A stretch of DNA of 64,000 bases, taken from contig NZ_JALNMI010000001.1 of NCBI RefSeq assembly GCF_023156585.1, positions 124,001 through 188,000 on the forward strand, in the 5' to 3' direction. Each line of letters begins with the position of its first letter. The stretch's first letter is position 1. Below the pieces are notes generated by a model. That model saw nothing but the letters and a program-made list of their open reading frames with translations, had not been told where the DNA came from and made no database searches. This document shows positions 41,362-50,408 of this stretch, in pieces. Source of the DNA: Subsaxibacter sp. CAU 1640 (GTDB taxonomy: Bacteria > Bacteroidota > Bacteroidia > Flavobacteriales > Flavobacteriaceae). The position numbers and the translations under genes are program-made.

Positions 41362-41375
41362 TGTAATCGATTGCA
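41362..41375. promoter_or_regulatory. Pectin operator before the cupin operon
   Basis: TGTAATCGATTGCA is a near-perfect palindrome, with one mismatched pair, 9 nt before the chosen cupin start. On the minus strand TATATTTA (41376-41383), one base off the TAnnTTTG -7 box, abuts it directly, so a bound repressor would cover the start of transcription. Confidence 0.75.
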
Positions 41376-41513: not shown

Positions 41514-41527
41514 TGCAATCGATTACA
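41514..41527. promoter_or_regulatory. Pectin operator before the first PL1 gene
   Basis: TGCAATCGATTACA lies 35 nt before the PL1 start. A -7-like TACATATG (41508-41515), one base off consensus, overlaps its first two bases. Confidence 0.75.
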
Positions 41528-41562: not shown

Positions 41563-44043
41563 ATGAAAAAAACTTTACTTTATTTGTTCGTCTTTTTTGC
41601 ATTTATAGAAATGAATGCACAGACGGTAACCATCACGCAATCTGTAGGATGGCTTGAATCTGCCTATGTAACTTGGGATCCTGTCGCTGGTGCTGATAGT
41701 TACAATGTCTATTACTCCGGAAACGGGTTTACCAATCAACAAATCGACACGCAACTTATCCGTAATTACGGAAGTTATTATCGTGCCGATGTATTAGGGC
41801 TTGCAGCTGGAACATATACTATTAATGTTGTTCCGGTTACAGCAGGTGTAGAAGGCACTGCCACAACTTCGAGCAGTATCACGGTTTTGGCTCACGACCG
41901 TAATGGATTTGCCCACGAAGGCGGCCACGTTCCTGGCGCTTATAATCTTGACGGGACCTTAAAGGCAAATGCTGTGGTGATCTATATTACCGAAAATTCC
42001 AAGAATACGGTATCACTAAATGTCATTGGCGCCACTTCAAATCCGTGTGTCGGACTTCAAACAATTCTAGATGGGTTTAAAAGAGGTGATGATGACAGAC
42101 CTCTTGCCGTACGTTTAATTGGTAACATTACCGACCTTAATTATATGTTGAATGGTGATATTGTCATCGAAAATGAGAATAACCCTTTAGGAAGTATCAC
42201 TTTTGAAGGTGTGGGCTCTGATGCCACTGTCAATGGTTGGGGATTAAGAATCAAGAGAGGTACCAACATTGAAGTAAGGAATTTAGGTTTTATGCTTACC
42301 AATGCAAGCGAAGGTGATAACGTGGGGCTACAGCAAGATAATGACCACGTTTGGGTTCATAATTGCGATATGTTTTATGGAGCACCAGGAGGTGATGCCG
42401 ACCAAGCAAAAGGCGATGGAGCGTTGGACTGTAAACGTTCAACTTATGTGACAATGTCCTACAATCACTTTTGGGATACAGGCAAAAGTAATTTATTGGG
42501 TTTAAGTGAAAATACAACCACAGGTCTCTATATAACTTATCATCACAACTGGTATGACCATTCAGATTCGAGACATCCAAGGGTTCGTTTTTATTCTGCC
42601 CATATTTACAATAATTACTTTGACGGAAATGCAAAATATGGTTCAGGTTCTACCGAAGGTTCTTCTCTATTTGTTGAAGGAAACTTATTTAGGAACTGCA
42701 AATATCCTATGCTGACCTCACAGCAAGGAACCGACATTTATAATGGTGCCCAGGGTACTTTTTCAGGTGAAGATGGAGGCTTTATAAAGGCCTATAATAA
42801 TGATATTACTGGAGCCACGCGATTTGTTCCTTACGATGCGGCAAACTATCCAGTTCAATTTGATGCTTATGTTGCGAGTACAAGGAATGAAGTAGTGAGC
42901 AATTCCATCTCTTCTTATCAAGGCGGTAATACTTATAATAATTTTGATACTGACCCTTCTCTGTATATAAATTCTTTGATTATTGATACACCAATAGAGG
43001 CAAGAGATAAGGTGATGCAGTATTCTGGTCGCGTTTCGGGAGGTGATATCAATTGGAATTTCAATAACGCGATCGATGACACCTCATCAGCATTGAACAC
43101 TGGGTTGGCAGCTCTATTGAATAATTACACGTCAGGTTTGGTCTGCATACAAGGCGATGCGTCAGGAAATGGCAGCACACAAACACTTACAGTACCAAAC
43201 AATAATGAGCAATGGGTGGACGAAGGAACAGCTATCAGCGATATGATTTTTGTTTGGGGTGGAGACGCTACAAATGCAACGGTGAATGGGTTGCCTTCTT
43301 CTGGGATCAATTACACCATCGACGTAAACACTAAATCTGTTACCGTTTTCGGAACACCAACAGCAAATGTCAACTTTACTGTTGTTACAAGCGGTCCAGC
43401 AGGCTCACCTGTAACTGGAAATGGCAGTATTTCTATCAACGGACTTCCGAATGGTGATGAAATACATAATTTTACTGCTTCAGGTTTGAACAGTAGTTAT
43501 TACACTTTTACGTCAGCCAATATGAATTCTACTCCTGGGAATACAACTTACGATGGCTTGACTTTAACAGCAAGGCTAAAGATAGAATCATCTACCAATA
43601 TTGCTTACACAACAAATTCTGAATCGACTTTAACATTGGTTTTTGATCCAGGATTCAGCGGAACCATTAAACTAGATGGAGTCAATTATACGGCTAGCAA
43701 TGGTGTTTTGAGCATTCCATCTGTGCCAGTGGGTACACATAACATAACAAAAGGAAATGTCGCGAATTTGTATTACATCAAAACTCAATTTACATTAGGA
43801 GTAGATGAGCACTCTACAAATCCTGCACTAGTTATTCATCCAAATCCTGTAACAAAGGTTTTAAATATACAATTCAATGATGACATACAAACTGTGTTAA
43901 TTTATGATGTGCTTGGCCATTTGATAAAAACTATCAAAGGTAATGTTCGAACAATTGAAACAGACAATTTAAGTTCAGGTCACTATCTTATGAAAGTACA
44001 AACGCACAAAGGTATTCTAACTAAAAAGTTTGTCAAGTATTGA
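41563..44043 (+). CDS. Secreted PL1 pectate lyase with T9SS sorting domain
   Basis: This 826-residue extracellular lyase has a signal peptide (about 1-20) and an FN3-like N-terminal domain (about 21-110, with VTWDPVAGADSYNVYYS). The PL1 beta-helix (about 112-480) shows DHVWVHNCDMF (261-271), GDGALDCKRSTYVTMSYNHF for the calcium and backbone region, and RHPRVR, a RxPxxR motif with Arg337 catalytic. Ig-like domains follow (about 530-740), then a T9SS C-terminal sorting domain (about 755-826, with VIHPNPV and the ending KKFVKY). It should cut de-esterified homogalacturonan outside the cell. It forms a single-gene unit between its own operator and a terminator. Confidence 0.92.
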   Translation: MKKTLLYLFVFFAFIEMNAQTVTITQSVGWLESAYVTWDPVAGADSYNVYYSGNGFTNQQIDTQLIRNYGSYYRADVLGLAAGTYTINVVPVTAGVEGTATTSSSITVLAHDRNGFAHEGGHVPGAYNLDGTLKANAVVIYITENSKNTVSLNVIGATSNPCVGLQTILDGFKRGDDDRPLAVRLIGNITDLNYMLNGDIVIENENNPLGSITFEGVGSDATVNGWGLRIKRGTNIEVRNLGFMLTNASEGDNVGLQQDNDHVWVHNCDMFYGAPGGDADQAKGDGALDCKRSTYVTMSYNHFWDTGKSNLLGLSENTTTGLYITYHHNWYDHSDSRHPRVRFYSAHIYNNYFDGNAKYGSGSTEGSSLFVEGNLFRNCKYPMLTSQQGTDIYNGAQGTFSGEDGGFIKAYNNDITGATRFVPYDAANYPVQFDAYVASTRNEVVSNSISSYQGGNTYNNFDTDPSLYINSLIIDTPIEARDKVMQYSGRVSGGDINWNFNNAIDDTSSALNTGLAALLNNYTSGLVCIQGDASGNGSTQTLTVPNNNEQWVDEGTAISDMIFVWGGDATNATVNGLPSSGINYTIDVNTKSVTVFGTPTANVNFTVVTSGPAGSPVTGNGSISINGLPNGDEIHNFTASGLNSSYYTFTSANMNSTPGNTTYDGLTLTARLKIESSTNIAYTTNSESTLTLVFDPGFSGTIKLDGVNYTASNGVLSIPSVPVGTHNITKGNVANLYYIKTQFTLGVDEHSTNPALVIHPNPVTKVLNIQFNDDIQTVLIYDVLGHLIKTIKGNVRTIETDNLSSGHYLMKVQTHKGILTKKFVKY

Positions 44044-44178: not shown

Positions 44179-44208
44179 AAAAAAAGACGCCTTAAAAATT
44201 TCAAGGCG
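44179..44208 (-). terminator. Terminator after the orphan secreted protein
   Basis: On the minus strand CGCCTT (44203-44208) pairs with AAGGCG (44188-44193) around a 9-nt loop, followed by TCTTTTTTTATC. It faces the previous terminator across about 80 nt in which nothing else was recognised. Confidence 0.7.
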
Positions 44209-44258
44209 CCATAAATTGGATTTAACCTAAAAATATTAACTCAACTGTATTTTATGTT

Positions 44259-45056
44259 CTACTGAACTAACAATTTTACTGATTTTTGTCCCTCGTTTGT
44301 TTTTATTGTAGCAATATAAAAACCTGTGTTTAAGCTAAAGCTGGTATCAGTATTTGTATTTACAGTTTTAACCAATGCACCTGTCAGAGCATAGATGCTT
44401 ATTTCTGAATTGCTTCTTACATTCGAAACATAAACTGTGTCTCCGATAGCCTTTACATTTGTTGAAACACCCTCAACCAAATCATTTGTACCTAAAAGAG
44501 TACTGCTGATTTCCAGTTTGTATAAATTGTAAGCATTTCCAGCAAATAAAACATATAGGTTTCCTGCTCCACCTAGATAATCTGCTTCCATATATTGAGG
44601 ATCTGTATCACCCAAACCAACATAGTGAGTTACTTCAGAAGTACCGTCAGTAACCCATAAATCACGAGGCGTACTTGTACCACTTTGTCTAAACCAAACC
44701 TTCACAGCAACTGGTCCATCTACTGGAAAGGTCAAATAACGTCGCGTTGGTAAGAATGTTACACCATCTGAAGGATCAATGCCACTATTGCCACCAGCTT
44801 TCCAGCGATTTACGCTAGTGTACTCGTCTGCTGTTCCAGCAAACCAAGTCGCGCTGTTAGCTTCGACTATTCCAAAACCAGAACCTCCTTCTGGAACTTG
44901 AGTCAATCCATCGACTGTGGTAGTCTCGGTTAAAGCTGTTGGATTCTCTGGCCAATTGACGGTGTCGTTGCCAAAATCCCACACCTTATCCTGTGCTTTA
45001 ATAGTGACAACACAAAATAAAAATGGCATTACAATAAAAAGTAGTTTTTGTTTCAT
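44259..45056 (-). CDS. Orphan T9SS-secreted protein, possible pectin-binding module
   Basis: This 265-residue protein has a signal peptide (about 1-21), one beta-rich module (about 22-185, starting DKVWDFGNDTVNWPEN) and a T9SS sorting domain (about 190-265, ending KSVKLLVQ). No catalytic motif was recognised. The module resembles the segment of the neighbouring CE8 protein that starts DVWDFGAEQLD, sharing the VWDFG opening, an RYLT strand and a final (V/Y)xLxK/R-type strand. It could therefore be a stand-alone copy of that module. It has its own promoter with two operator copies and its own terminator, so it is expressed as a single gene. A carbohydrate-binding role is inference only. Confidence 0.6.
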   Translation of the reverse strand: MKQKLLFIVMPFLFCVVTIKAQDKVWDFGNDTVNWPENPTALTETTTVDGLTQVPEGGSGFGIVEANSATWFAGTADEYTSVNRWKAGGNSGIDPSDGVTFLPTRRYLTFPVDGPVAVKVWFRQSGTSTPRDLWVTDGTSEVTHYVGLGDTDPQYMEADYLGGAGNLYVLFAGNAYNLYKLEISSTLLGTNDLVEGVSTNVKAIGDTVYVSNVRSNSEISIYALTGALVKTVNTNTDTSFSLNTGFYIATIKTNEGQKSVKLLVQ

Positions 45057-45072: not shown

Positions 45073-45104
45073 GTTAATCGATTACACAATTGTAATCGAT
45101 TACC
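45073..45104. promoter_or_regulatory. Tandem pectin operators before the orphan gene
   Basis: Two copies lie 18 bp apart, centre to centre: GTTAATCGATTACA (45073-45086) and TGTAATCGATTACC (45091-45104). On the minus strand TATTTTGG (45103-45110), one base off the -7 consensus, overlaps the second. The first lies 16 nt before the start codon. Confidence 0.75.
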
Positions 45105-45169
45105 AAAATACTAATAAATTTTTATAAAATCATATTTTTTTAACAAAAAAGTGCAGTGGCCAATAAGCC

Positions 45170-48100
45170 CTAGTGGGATAGCAGTTTTACTGTTTTAGAA
45201 CCTTTTTCAGAAGTGGCTTTTACAATCCACAAACCTTGAGGTAAAGCCATTTCCATATCCGTATAGGTGCTGCAACTTTTCAATAGTGCACCAGTCATAC
45301 TATATACTCTCACTTCGGTTTTTGAGGTCACATTCGAAATGAATAATTTTTGATTATAAGTTTTGATATTAACTGAAGTTCCAACAGTTCCATCAATTTC
45401 ATTAATCCCCAAAAAAGCGAATGGATCCCAACCATCATTCCCTTGAGTAAAGTTTAATGTTGTTATGTTCGTTCCGTCAGTCAAAACTGGCGATGACAAC
45501 ACTGTTGACCAAGGCGCACGAACACCAGAATTGTCCACACCTGGTGCATTTTCAATAGTGCCAAATTCATACATCTTTGGAGATTCACCTCCTAAAGAAC
45601 TTGTCCATCCTACTGGTGAAATCAACGAAAGTCCTTCTGAACCTGGATACGTTGATTCATCAATTGTGGTGTTATAGAAAACAACCTCACTTGTGTTAGG
45701 TGCCCAAGGACGTCCAAAATATCCTGGTTTCGAACCATTGACCGAAGCTGTCTCAACACCAGGAACTGGGGAAACTACGTGACATTGATACATCAAAAAG
45801 CCTCTGCCACTTGTTTGTTGAGCTGCAGTAATGTAAGCCGCGTCACTACTTGAATCACTCGTGTTCAGCATCAATTCTGATTCGTAAAAGACCGCTGTCA
45901 TTCCACCGAAAATGTAATCAACTGCACCCATCATTACACCTTGATATGCGGCAAACCTTGCTCCAGACGCACCATAAAAAGAATCTTGACGACCGATGAC
46001 TCTACAATTGTTTAAAAACACTCTATCTGCACTTGCTGCAATGCCAAGGGCTGCTGCCTGCGTTACATAACCAGCCGCTCTATTTTGAACTGCTGTATTT
46101 CCGTAATCAGTCGGTCTAACAGGCTCACTCGGAGCTTTAGGCAAAACGACATCTTGAGATTCTTTCAACGAAATGTATTGATTGAATGAATTTTCAAGAA
46201 TGATGTTATCAAAAGTGATGTCTTCAGCCGTGATAACCACCGTAGCATTCCAATAAGAAGAACCGCCACCTGTTCCTTCTTGATTGACATAATTTGTGTA
46301 GCCATTTTCAGTGTTAACTGCCAATGCTTCAGCGCTCCATTTGTTATTGGTAGACTGACTAAAGAAATTATATTTTTGACCATAATAAGATGTTATTCTC
46401 ACCGCATTGGCATCGATATCAACTCCAGCATTTAATAATCCGATACTTGGACTTGTTGAAGCATTTTTTAGTGTAATGTTGTTGTTCGAAACCACTAGCA
46501 TTTCTTCATAATTTCCTGGGTCGATCATAACCATTACATGTTCATCGTTTGAACGTTCCATCCTTGAAATAGCGTCCAAAGCGCCATTTATTGTCTGATA
46601 ATCTTTATCTACACCCACGGTAACTATTGGACTATATCCTACTATTGAAACCACCTTGAACGACGTGAAATAAGAATTTCCACTAACTGATATCGTCACA
46701 GTTCCATCAGAAGTTCCTGGATAAATATATTCACTTGTAACACTTGTACTAGTACTATTGGATGTATTTGTAATTGTCGGCCCTCCCTCAACGGAATAAC
46801 TGGATTGGTAATAATCTTTGATTATCACTTTGTCCCCAACCTGAACAGGAATTGCGATGGTAGCACCATTGCCTGCGTTCAAATCACCATTTGCACCCCT
46901 AACATTGACATTGCCAGTAAATATTAGCCCCTTGTAAGCAGTTGCTGCTGTTATCACTCTGTCATTAAATCGCCATTCTGAAATTGAATTAAAGGTTAAA
47001 GTTTTTGAAGTTGGCGCCGAGGACACAACTAGATTTGAGGTTAATGCTAACTCAATTGGATACAAATCAAGGCCCTCATACGAAATTTCATAAACCCCAT
47101 CTCTTAAACTTACAGATGACACATCAGTAAAAGAATAAGAATAACCATCTTCATTTAAATTTGTAAAAGTTAAACTCAATGCTGATCGTTGCGATACCGT
47201 CAAATCAGGTGTCGCAATCGAAACATTGTATAAAGGTTTTAATGTAAAGTTGATATTCGATGTTTCCGCAGCCATTCCGATGGTGATCGTGTTCGAAAGA
47301 ATTTCATAATCATTGACACCTATGGCGGATATCGTATATTCAATATTGGCTTCCAGATTTACACTATAAGTAGAATTGGCTTCATCAATGGTTACAACAG
47401 GCGTGTATATACTTCCTGCCGCAGGATCTGGTGTGAAATCTAACCCCAAACCAGTCACATCTGGCAATCCTGAAATGTTACCACTCAAATTGTACAAATC
47501 TACTTGTAAAAGAACAATATCGTGTGTGGTTGTAGATTCGGCAACGTCCAATGTGTCTCCACTTGTGATAATATATCCATTTGCTCCTGCAAGACTCAAT
47601 TCATATTCATATCCTTCAGGCAAATCTACCGTATATGTGCCGCTGGAAACAACCGAAGTTACAACCTTTCCAGCAGCATTGGTGAATTGAATGCCATAAC
47701 CACCAGGAAGTCCTGGAGCTTGAGATTCGTCAACGGCTCCTGTAATAGTAATGTAGTTTGCCGCCTTTCTATAGACTCTAAAATAACTCGGTTTACCTGT
47801 TGTATCGTAAATCTGGTACTCACCAGCTGATTTTGCAACAAAATCCACAACGGTTTCAGCAGCAGGAACTGCTACTTGGTCTGTTTGGGCAGAAGGATCG
47901 GGAACATATACGAAATTCAATACACCACCGGCATCGGTTCTAGTATTGAGCGTCACCTCATCATCTTCGGCAAGATTTAAAGTTAAATATCTCCCAGTAT
48001 TGGCTCCAGAATTTACATAAACCCTACCCGTAAAATTGGTAGAGCTTGCAATGTTCTCATCCCATCTTGTCAAGTTAGTGTTAGTCGATCTTAATCGGTC

Positions 48101-48781
48101 GCTTGTTCCATTCGTAACATAACCTAAATCTCCAGCACTGAATGATGGTAAATTGACACCACTTGAACCTGGAGTAATCGAAATATCATACCAAGAATTG
48201 ATAATCGATTCTGATAGCATATTGTTATATAAGATAGGATCTAACTGTTCAGCTCCGAAATCCCAGACATCCGTCATTAACACTGCCGCTGCCATAGAGG
48301 TAACTTCAATAGCTGGAGTGTAAGCGTTCGAACCGTTGAAGGTAAAATATAAAGTTGTTGGGCTCCCAACATAATTGAACTCATAGTACCCTGTTTGGTC
48401 AGCCATTCCTGGATGCGAATCTAAATCCACATCGATGGACCCCAATTCACTTCCTCCTGGAGTAGTTCCTCCATGCATTGTCCCTGCACTGTATACAGAA
48501 CCATAAAAACGAATGGTATTATCCGTATTATCAACATCTATCTCTAGAAGATTCCCTTCTTTGAATGAAACTCCATAACCGTTACTATGCCAAAGGGTAG
48601 TTGCCGCTTGAGTTCTAACTTTACCATCAGGACTAACTGTCGAAGTTACTGGATCCCATTGTGTACCAGTATTAGTGAACGTTGAACCGTCTGCCAAGTT
48701 ATAATTGGTAGTTGTTTGACCTTGCAGTGCAAAACAAATTAAGAACAACGTCAAAGTGATAAAAACTGAAAGCTTTTTCAT
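45170..48781 (-). CDS. Giant secreted CE8 pectin methylesterase with T9SS sorting domain
   Basis: This 1203-residue protein has a signal peptide (about 1-22). A beta-rich N-terminal half holds at least two modules (about 25-160, and about 172-345 starting DVWDFGAEQ) and Ig-like repeats (about 345-520). Another beta module (about 600-712, EWRFNDRVI) precedes the CE8 beta-helix (about 718-1110). Its active-site residues are visible as GRQDSFYG (Asp933), GAVDYIFGG (Asp955) and FGRPW (Arg). A T9SS sorting domain ends it (about 1125-1203). It should remove methyl esters from homogalacturonan outside the cell. It is preceded by its own operator copy. The large non-catalytic part is unusual for the family and could bind polysaccharide. 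Confidence 0.9.
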   Translation of the reverse strand: MKKLSVFITLTLFLICFALQGQTTTNYNLADGSTFTNTGTQWDPVTSTVSPDGKVRTQAATTLWHSNGYGVSFKEGNLLEIDVDNTDNTIRFYGSVYSAGTMHGGTTPGGSELGSIDVDLDSHPGMADQTGYYEFNYVGSPTTLYFTFNGSNAYTPAIEVTSMAAAVLMTDVWDFGAEQLDPILYNNMLSESIINSWYDISITPGSSGVNLPSFSAGDLGYVTNGTSDRLRSTNTNLTRWDENIASSTNFTGRVYVNSGANTGRYLTLNLAEDDEVTLNTRTDAGGVLNFVYVPDPSAQTDQVAVPAAETVVDFVAKSAGEYQIYDTTGKPSYFRVYRKAANYITITGAVDESQAPGLPGGYGIQFTNAAGKVVTSVVSSGTYTVDLPEGYEYELSLAGANGYIITSGDTLDVAESTTTHDIVLLQVDLYNLSGNISGLPDVTGLGLDFTPDPAAGSIYTPVVTIDEANSTYSVNLEANIEYTISAIGVNDYEILSNTITIGMAAETSNINFTLKPLYNVSIATPDLTVSQRSALSLTFTNLNEDGYSYSFTDVSSVSLRDGVYEISYEGLDLYPIELALTSNLVVSSAPTSKTLTFNSISEWRFNDRVITAATAYKGLIFTGNVNVRGANGDLNAGNGATIAIPVQVGDKVIIKDYYQSSYSVEGGPTITNTSNSTSTSVTSEYIYPGTSDGTVTISVSGNSYFTSFKVVSIVGYSPIVTVGVDKDYQTINGALDAISRMERSNDEHVMVMIDPGNYEEMLVVSNNNITLKNASTSPSIGLLNAGVDIDANAVRITSYYGQKYNFFSQSTNNKWSAEALAVNTENGYTNYVNQEGTGGGSSYWNATVVITAEDITFDNIILENSFNQYISLKESQDVVLPKAPSEPVRPTDYGNTAVQNRAAGYVTQAAALGIAASADRVFLNNCRVIGRQDSFYGASGARFAAYQGVMMGAVDYIFGGMTAVFYESELMLNTSDSSSDAAYITAAQQTSGRGFLMYQCHVVSPVPGVETASVNGSKPGYFGRPWAPNTSEVVFYNTTIDESTYPGSEGLSLISPVGWTSSLGGESPKMYEFGTIENAPGVDNSGVRAPWSTVLSSPVLTDGTNITTLNFTQGNDGWDPFAFLGINEIDGTVGTSVNIKTYNQKLFISNVTSKTEVRVYSMTGALLKSCSTYTDMEMALPQGLWIVKATSEKGSKTVKLLSH

Positions 48782-48825: not shown

Positions 48826-48839
48826 TGCAATCGATTACT
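48826..48839. promoter_or_regulatory. Pectin operator before the giant CE8 gene
   Basis: TGCAATCGATTACT lies 44 nt before the CE8 start. On the minus strand TAAGTTAA (48840-48847), a weak -7 box, directly abuts it, the same geometry as at the other sites. Confidence 0.7.
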
Positions 48840-48871: not shown

Positions 48872-50185
48872 TTACTTTTTAATAACTTTAAACATTTCAA
48901 CTTTGGACCCAACTTCAACTTTACAAAAATAAATTCCGCTTTCATATCCACGGAAATCAATCTCTGAAACATCATCTAATTTCTCTGAACTCGTGTAAAG
49001 TTTTTTTCCATTTAATGAGTAGATTGATATTTCAGCCCTACTATTATTTCTTTCAACAAGCTTTATGTTTAACTTATCTTCAATTACCGTAGGATAGTAT
49101 TTTATGCCTGTAGTTGTATAATCATCAACACCCAAATTGTCGCAAGACGATGATATAACACCAGATGCACTGACCTGAAGCGTTGCACCTGCACCACAAG
49201 AGGTATCTGTTACTGCCGTTGAAACATCAGTCACAGGAAAAGATGTGTAGGTATAGGAAGGTGCTGAAACAGATCCCAAATTAGACACGTTATTTATACA
49301 ATCATTAAATTGTAGCGACACCATACCACCATCTGAACCTGCATTTTGATAAACGTTAGTGACATTATTGAAATGTGATTTTTCAACATAACACGTTAAG
49401 TTATTCGTTCCTCCGCCAAGGCCTAAAGCCGCTGAACCAGAAACGCCAGGATTATAATAGCAGTTCAAAATATGTAGCTCTGCATTTCTTGCACGCGGCA
49501 TTCGCGCTTTACATCCACTAGCCCAATAACAATTTTGAAAAGTGACACTATAATGCCCATCTGATGGAGCATTGCTGCTGCTGGATCCTATAAGATTGGA
49601 AAATCTATGATCATTGGAACCACCAGGACCACCTGTTATAGGAGGCTTTAAATAAGTGAACTTGCACCAAGAAACGGTAATGTTGTCCGAATTATTTTTA
49701 ATGTCAAAATTCCCATCAATACCATCCTGAAATTCACAATGATCAACCCATAAATTGGTACATCCGTCCGCGGTAAGATTATCGCGCCCATCCACATCAT
49801 ACGCTCCAGGCCCTTCAAAAATTAAATTTCTGATGATAACATTGTTAGAGCCATTCTTTAAATTGAGAATTCCCGAACCAGATGGAGTAAGGTCATTATT
49901 TACCAATCTTGCACCAGGAAGCCCAATAATAGTTTTGTTGATTACCACTTCACTTATGGGTTGACCGGTAGGTATAGTTATGGTGCCAGAAACCAAAATC
50001 ACTTGCGGAGTGGATAAACGGATGTTTGCTTTAAAGTCAGTGTAGTTTGAAACGGTTACAGGAGAAACATTTCCACCTCCAGTTGTATTTGCACCAAAAC
50101 CCTCTGGTGAGGCCATATAATATGTTTGAGCTAACAATGATGTAAATGATAATGTTAAGACAAGTAGAAGTAAAGTTTTTTTCAT
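48872..50185 (-). CDS. Secreted PL1 pectate lyase with T9SS sorting domain
   Basis: The frame is open from 50308, but the ATG at 50185 gives a clean signal peptide (MKKTLLLLVLTLSFTSLLAQ) and places the operator outside the gene, so it is chosen (437 residues). The PL1 beta-helix starts at ASPEGFGANTTGG (25-37) and carries WVDHCEFQDGIDGNFD (146-161, calcium ligands) and ARMPRAR with the RxPxxR motif (Arg228, Arg233). A T9SS sorting domain ends it (about 362-437, with YYPTVIEDKLNIKL). It should cleave homogalacturonan extracellularly by calcium-dependent beta-elimination. It lies downstream of a divergent promoter region shared with the pectin susC. Confidence 0.93.
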   Translation of the reverse strand: MKKTLLLLVLTLSFTSLLAQTYYMASPEGFGANTTGGGNVSPVTVSNYTDFKANIRLSTPQVILVSGTITIPTGQPISEVVINKTIIGLPGARLVNNDLTPSGSGILNLKNGSNNVIIRNLIFEGPGAYDVDGRDNLTADGCTNLWVDHCEFQDGIDGNFDIKNNSDNITVSWCKFTYLKPPITGGPGGSNDHRFSNLIGSSSSNAPSDGHYSVTFQNCYWASGCKARMPRARNAELHILNCYYNPGVSGSAALGLGGGTNNLTCYVEKSHFNNVTNVYQNAGSDGGMVSLQFNDCINNVSNLGSVSAPSYTYTSFPVTDVSTAVTDTSCGAGATLQVSASGVISSSCDNLGVDDYTTTGIKYYPTVIEDKLNIKLVERNNSRAEISIYSLNGKKLYTSSEKLDDVSEIDFRGYESGIYFCKVEVGSKVEMFKVIKK

Positions 50186-50217: not shown

Positions 50218-50231
50218 TGTAATCGATTACA
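50218..50231. promoter_or_regulatory. Perfect pectin operator before the second PL1
   Basis: TGTAATCGATTACA is a perfect 14-bp palindrome. On the minus strand the exact -7 box TATGTTTG (50232-50239) abuts it, so the operator covers the likely transcription start. Confidence 0.85.
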
Positions 50232-50363: not shown

Positions 50364-50408
50364 TTTGCGTAATTAAAAAATAATAATAAATTTGTGCAAT
50401 CGATTACA
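50364..50408 (+). promoter_or_regulatory. Promoter and operator of the pectin susC operon
   Basis: TTTG (50364-50367), a 19-bp spacer and TAAATTTG (50387-50394) form a consensus Bacteroidota promoter. The operator TGCAATCGATTACA (50395-50408) follows with no gap and covers the expected start of transcription. Confidence 0.88.

Follow-up and report, generated by a model that had tools for sequence, protein, structure and literature searches.

Putative pectin-binding modules and the architecture of the stand-alone protein

Surface glycan-binding proteins of the SusE/F type are lipoproteins, and CBM77 has been described as a homogalacturonan-binding module. Two solved domains of the PDB, 8wc1 and 8x8h, both bear the title "A carbohydrate binding domain of a putative pectate lyase," the former being labelled "Pectate lyase family 9" and the latter a pectate disaccharide-lyase. 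We compared with these systems a stand-alone T9SS protein, the 265-aa product of an open reading frame on the minus strand (44259..45056) of the 64,000-nucleotide stretch of DNA that was analysed as a whole (the window). With the SusE/F-type proteins it shares a presumed non-catalytic capture of glycan and co-regulation with a PUL, but it carries a T9SS tail, and no lipobox was seen by eye ahead of its mature start. Like CBM77, which occurs in the adjacent PL1 protein, its module is a pectin-associated accessory module of the same locus, but the Pfam CBM77 model (PF18283) did not match this module at E up to 1, nor any of 29 relatives. The domains 8wc1 and 8x8h are its best fold matches, whereas identity to them is about 15% and the domain is part of a lyase there and stands alone with a T9SS tail here.

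The gene lies between that of a PL1 pectate lyase with CBM77 and a T9SS tail, which it adjoins (41563..44043, plus strand; Pfam), and that of a 1203-aa CE8 pectinesterase with a T9SS-like tail (45170..48781, minus strand; Pfam Pectinesterase, E 3e-21; TIGR04183, E 0.0011, under the cut-off). All parts of the stand-alone gene are given on the minus strand. A signal peptide of about residues 1-22 (MKQKLLFIVMPFLFCVVTIKAQ; 44991..45056) forms the hydrophobic N terminus, which by eye ends in KAQ, and this feature, including the "AQ" boundary, is kept in relatives. Residues 23-186 (44499..44990) form a beta-sandwich module of carbohydrate-binding type, about 164 residues long, assigned from the AlphaFold model and its PDB matches. 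Residues 207-265 (44262..44438) are a T9SS type A C-terminal sorting domain, recognised by TIGR04183 with 30.5 bits, above the cut-off of 23 (E 2.6e-7); the Pfam model Por_Secre_tail matched at E 1.5e-4, under its own cut-off. With its Sec signal peptide and type A tail, the protein is, from its sequence, a predicted T9SS type A substrate.

Neither Pfam nor NCBIfam revealed an enzyme domain in the protein or a named family for its module, and the modules of its relatives were likewise without a family match. The preliminary description, which had presented an enzyme-free T9SS protein of no recognised family, was thus borne out on both points. Within the module, R84, Y107, W121, R131, and K180 are conserved and are candidates for a binding site or for the core.

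Fold of the module and its kinship with the CE8 modules

The AlphaFold model of the 244-aa mature protein had a pLDDT of 90, and the two nearest PDB folds to its module were 8wc1 (TMt 0.81) and 8x8h (TMt 0.77), the E values of the top two hits being 1.2e-7 and 4.7e-7. A PDB search with the protein as a single sequence returned nothing, and the profile of the stand-alone modules ranked 8wc1 first among PDB sequences at a sub-threshold E of 3.9. The same profile matched L044, from another family of the class (E 3.2e-10), and L044 in turn matched 8wc1 (4.2e-5) and 8x8h (1.4e-3), thus providing a bridge of homology from the stand-alone module to the solved domains. A viral structure library gave no good match. 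In its predicted model, the module shares the fold of these pectate-lyase carbohydrate-binding domains; its class, the galactose-binding-like sandwich, also includes members with non-carbohydrate functions.

The module had previously been likened to residues 172-345 of the neighbouring CE8 protein. In BLASTP, the tails of the two proteins aligned strongly (38%, 6e-14) and the module contributed only "VWDFG"; a single-protein query of the genome itself with the module retrieved no other protein. Profile-profile comparison of 20 stand-alone modules with five CE8 modules of the 172-345 type gave a probability of 3.7%, and hhalign with 26 CE8-type modules gave 44% (E 2.3e-4). The CE8 module concerned (residues 172-348; 47738..48268, minus strand) was modelled with a pLDDT of 91.7, its top two PDB matches were again 8wc1 and 8x8h, and the profile of CE8 modules retrieved from the PDB sequences only 8x8h (7.7e-4) and 8wc1 (2.5e-3). 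The resemblance thus stood at the level of the fold and was not confirmed in the pairwise sequence comparison, and the folds, which structure prediction could have separated, have their two nearest neighbours in common.

The kinship is claimed at the fold level because both confident models share 8wc1 and 8x8h, sequence alone being insufficient. We conclude that the stand-alone and CE8 modules share a carbohydrate-binding superfamily but are not close relatives, their relationship holding at the fold or superfamily level only. The CE8 module 172-348 shares with the stand-alone module these two PDB matches, the VWDFG start and the same operator motif on its gene, but sequence kinship is very weak and it sits within a 1203-aa enzyme. 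A recent copying of this module, which the preliminary description implied, was not upheld: sequence kinship is remote, and in profile comparison the N-terminal CE8 module (residues 23-165; 48287..48715, minus strand) comes nearer to the stand-alone module (hhalign 85%, E 6e-6). No kinship was found between the stand-alone module and the third CE8 module (A6).

At three other loci (L075:1333-2355, L076:1237-2205, and L077:1246-2217), we encountered T9SS-tailed proteins that stand alone and contain the CE8-type WDFG module itself, and their modules matched the CE8-type profile with E values from 1.5e-19 to 5.8e-29. They are the earlier described pattern in its literal form; the L075 protein adjoins a GH28 gene and the L076 protein a tagaturonate-reductase-like gene. 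We also observed CE8 relatives of 2000-2580 residues (L013:5839-11850, L055, and L068), of which the one in L013 has several additional N-terminal modules of the YDF type.

Operator-like palindromes and the likely pectin regulon

Two operator-like palindromes precede the stand-alone gene on the minus strand, GTAATCGATTAC at 45092..45103, kept upstream of 19 of 20 relatives, and GTAATCGATTAA at 45074..45085, 18 bp from the first. With at most one mismatch, GTAATCGATTAC occurs at 7 sites in the window against 0.10 expected, a number that none of 100 shuffles reached, and the earlier description is confirmed as to the two operator-like palindromes. All 7 sites lie just upstream of pectin-cluster genes: besides the two ahead of the stand-alone gene, the motif scan placed one each at the CE8 gene (48827..48838, minus strand), the PL1 gene 48872-50185 (50219..50230, minus strand), the SusC-like gene (50396..50407, plus strand), the PL1-CBM77 gene (41515..41526, plus strand), and the divergent cupin-like gene (41363..41374, minus strand). 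Among the relatives, a AATCGATT palindrome was found about 30 to 60 bp upstream of the start codon in 19 of 20, the Salegentibacter and Mesonia copies included, and shuffled upstream regions contained it with a mean of 0.11 and a maximum of 1 (500 shuffles).

The strict form, GYAATCGATTRC, has eight sites in the 3.47 Mb host genome, all within 37 kb (C1:165363-202497), a pectin/galacturonate region that includes a LacI-family gene. These sites precede PL1, CE8, SusC, PL9/LacI, and KduI/UxuB-UxuA genes. Two operators lie past the window, at L093:2385 and L093:14987 (G000:C1:189884 and 202486), the one flanked by a PL9 lyase and a LacI-family regulator, the other by KduI and UxuB/UxuA, both at divergent promoters, and they likely mark the regulon together with its regulator. 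The LacI gene (L093:2480-3502) may encode the protein that binds the AATCGATT operators, and the motif would then define a LacI-type pectin/galacturonate regulon.

The scan for sigma-70 promoters upstream of the stand-alone gene found nothing. Directly ahead of operator 1 lies TATTTTG (45104..45110, minus strand), a putative -7 promoter box that resembles the -7 type of Bacteroidetes; in several relatives the corresponding position is occupied by TATATTTG. The promoter of its own that had been proposed for the gene is thus plausible at best, the empty scan counting against it and the box before the first palindrome in its favour. The position of the TATATTTG-like box directly ahead of the palindrome in several relatives suggests, from sequence comparison, that the operator covers the transcription start. 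Downstream, a terminator-like hairpin with a T run was recovered at 44186..44210 (minus strand), where 0.7 would be expected by chance in the scanned region, in agreement with the earlier description.

Distribution, neighbourhood, and proposed role

We searched for relatives in random samples of 397 genomes of the family and 396 genomes of the order Flavobacteriales, and found stand-alone relatives in only 6 and 19 of them, respectively. Every order-level relative is an open frame with a length of 248 to 322 residues and without fusion to an enzyme, and tandem pairs of stand-alone genes occur in the genus g277 and in several other genomes. The family is unnamed in the libraries searched but widespread, and its kind is already known. 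When the short flanks of the relatives were searched with the pectin proteins of the window itself, a PL1 or CE8 gene adjoined every stand-alone Flavobacteriales locus checked; the short locus L038 has no PL1 or CE8 by itself, and its neighbour copy L028 has one. The exception is a two-module version in Salegentibacter and Mesonia (L009:7920-9236 and L010:7926-9239), located outside any pectin locus beside an M1 peptidase, with the pectin operator still upstream.

The large CE8 was present in all six family genomes with the stand-alone protein and in 16 of the 22 positive genomes overall, five of the remaining six belonging to g277. In these five, two stand-alone copies are accompanied nearby only by a short, bare CE8 without modules. 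Conversely, the stand-alone protein is absent from 7 of the 13 family genomes having the large CE8, and it is dispensable for this reason. The large CE8 was rejected as an obligate partner, as the two proteins occur apart in both directions.

The predicted fold, the linkage to PL1 and CE8 genes, and the operator common to the pectin regulon together best support a dedicated extracellular pectin-binding role, so that the main line of the preliminary interpretation holds. We consider it probable that the protein is a co-regulated, T9SS-exported pectin-binding protein consisting of a CBM only and helping the PL1 and CE8 enzymes in trans. In the presence of pectin breakdown products, the presumed LacI-family repressor would leave the AATCGATT operators, and the protein would be made alongside the PL1 lyases, the CE8 esterase, and the SusC/D uptake pair, and exported by the Sec system and then by T9SS. 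Its beta-sandwich module would retain homogalacturonan, either on the surface of the cell or in the medium around it, thus serving the enzymes as a binding partner in trans, like the surface glycan-binding lipoproteins of other PULs. The module is acidic (pI about 4.2, with 9 K+R vs 21 D+E), and simple ionic binding of polygalacturonate is therefore not favoured; a ligand that is neutral, methylated, or bridged by calcium would suit such a module better. The passages found in papers on growth with pectin (PMC6247017 and PMC5306329) contain no data on the family of this module.

The partner bound by the module could instead be the CE8 or PL1 enzymes and not the polysaccharide, in which case the protein would gather them at the cell surface as a dock or scaffold. 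The constant company of the large CE8 in the six family genomes and the similar tails of the stand-alone protein and its CE8 neighbour are in line with this, but similar tails are expected among T9SS proteins, the solved structures nearest in fold are carbohydrate-binding domains, and the five g277 genomes, with two copies and short bare CE8 only, indicate that the large CE8 is unneeded as a partner; we regard such a function as quite unlikely. A surface adhesin, which would use pectin as its anchor on plant or algal walls when the cell attaches or glides and would not help the enzymes directly, would be compatible with a T9SS tail on a CBM-like fold and with the paired and tandem copies of some genomes. 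This small single-module protein, however, does not resemble the known large adhesins, and tight co-regulation with catabolic genes fits nutrition better, so that we hold adhesion to be unlikely.

Beta-sandwich lyases exist, and the conserved R84, Y107, R131, and K180 could be catalytic, in which case the module would itself be a small unrecognised lyase or esterase. Among the best 50 PDB matches, however, there was no beta-jelly-roll lyase, and the glucuronidases in that set aligned poorly (TM about 0.2). There is no positive evidence for an enzymatic role, and it appears very improbable. A further candidate role, that of a T9SS surface nuclease like AS87_RS02955, came from the NCBIfam model NF052644; of 29 full-length members, 7 matched it, with an E of 3.7e-9 at best. 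The window protein, however, reached 19.9 bits where the cut-off is 260, and module-only sequences did not match at all; the likeness to AS87_RS02955 lies in the T9SS tail, whereas the module is unrelated. Since the match arises from the tail only, a nuclease role is excluded with near certainty, and this was the sole match to a non-carbohydrate family, of the kind that would have spoken against a carbohydrate-related module.

Compared with the probable pectin-binding role of the single protein, a broader reading is more tentative, and we would put it somewhat below an even chance: an unnamed CBM family, whose Flavobacteriales members are always enzyme-free T9SS proteins, would perform trans-acting capture of pectin, with some lineages pairing it with bare PL1 or CE8 enzymes instead of enzyme-linked binding modules, and with the pectin operator kept even off-locus. 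The stand-alone proteins would be the founding enzyme-free member set of an unnamed pectin-associated CBM family, and would show that T9SS bacteria leave the binding of substrate to separate proteins under common regulation. The operator motif could also guide searches for additional pectin proteins of Flavobacteriales that lack a name, off-locus ones included. One contig binned as Bacteroidales (L008) encodes a module 77% identical to that of the window, with CE8 and PL1 neighbours, reflecting either horizontal transfer or mis-binning.
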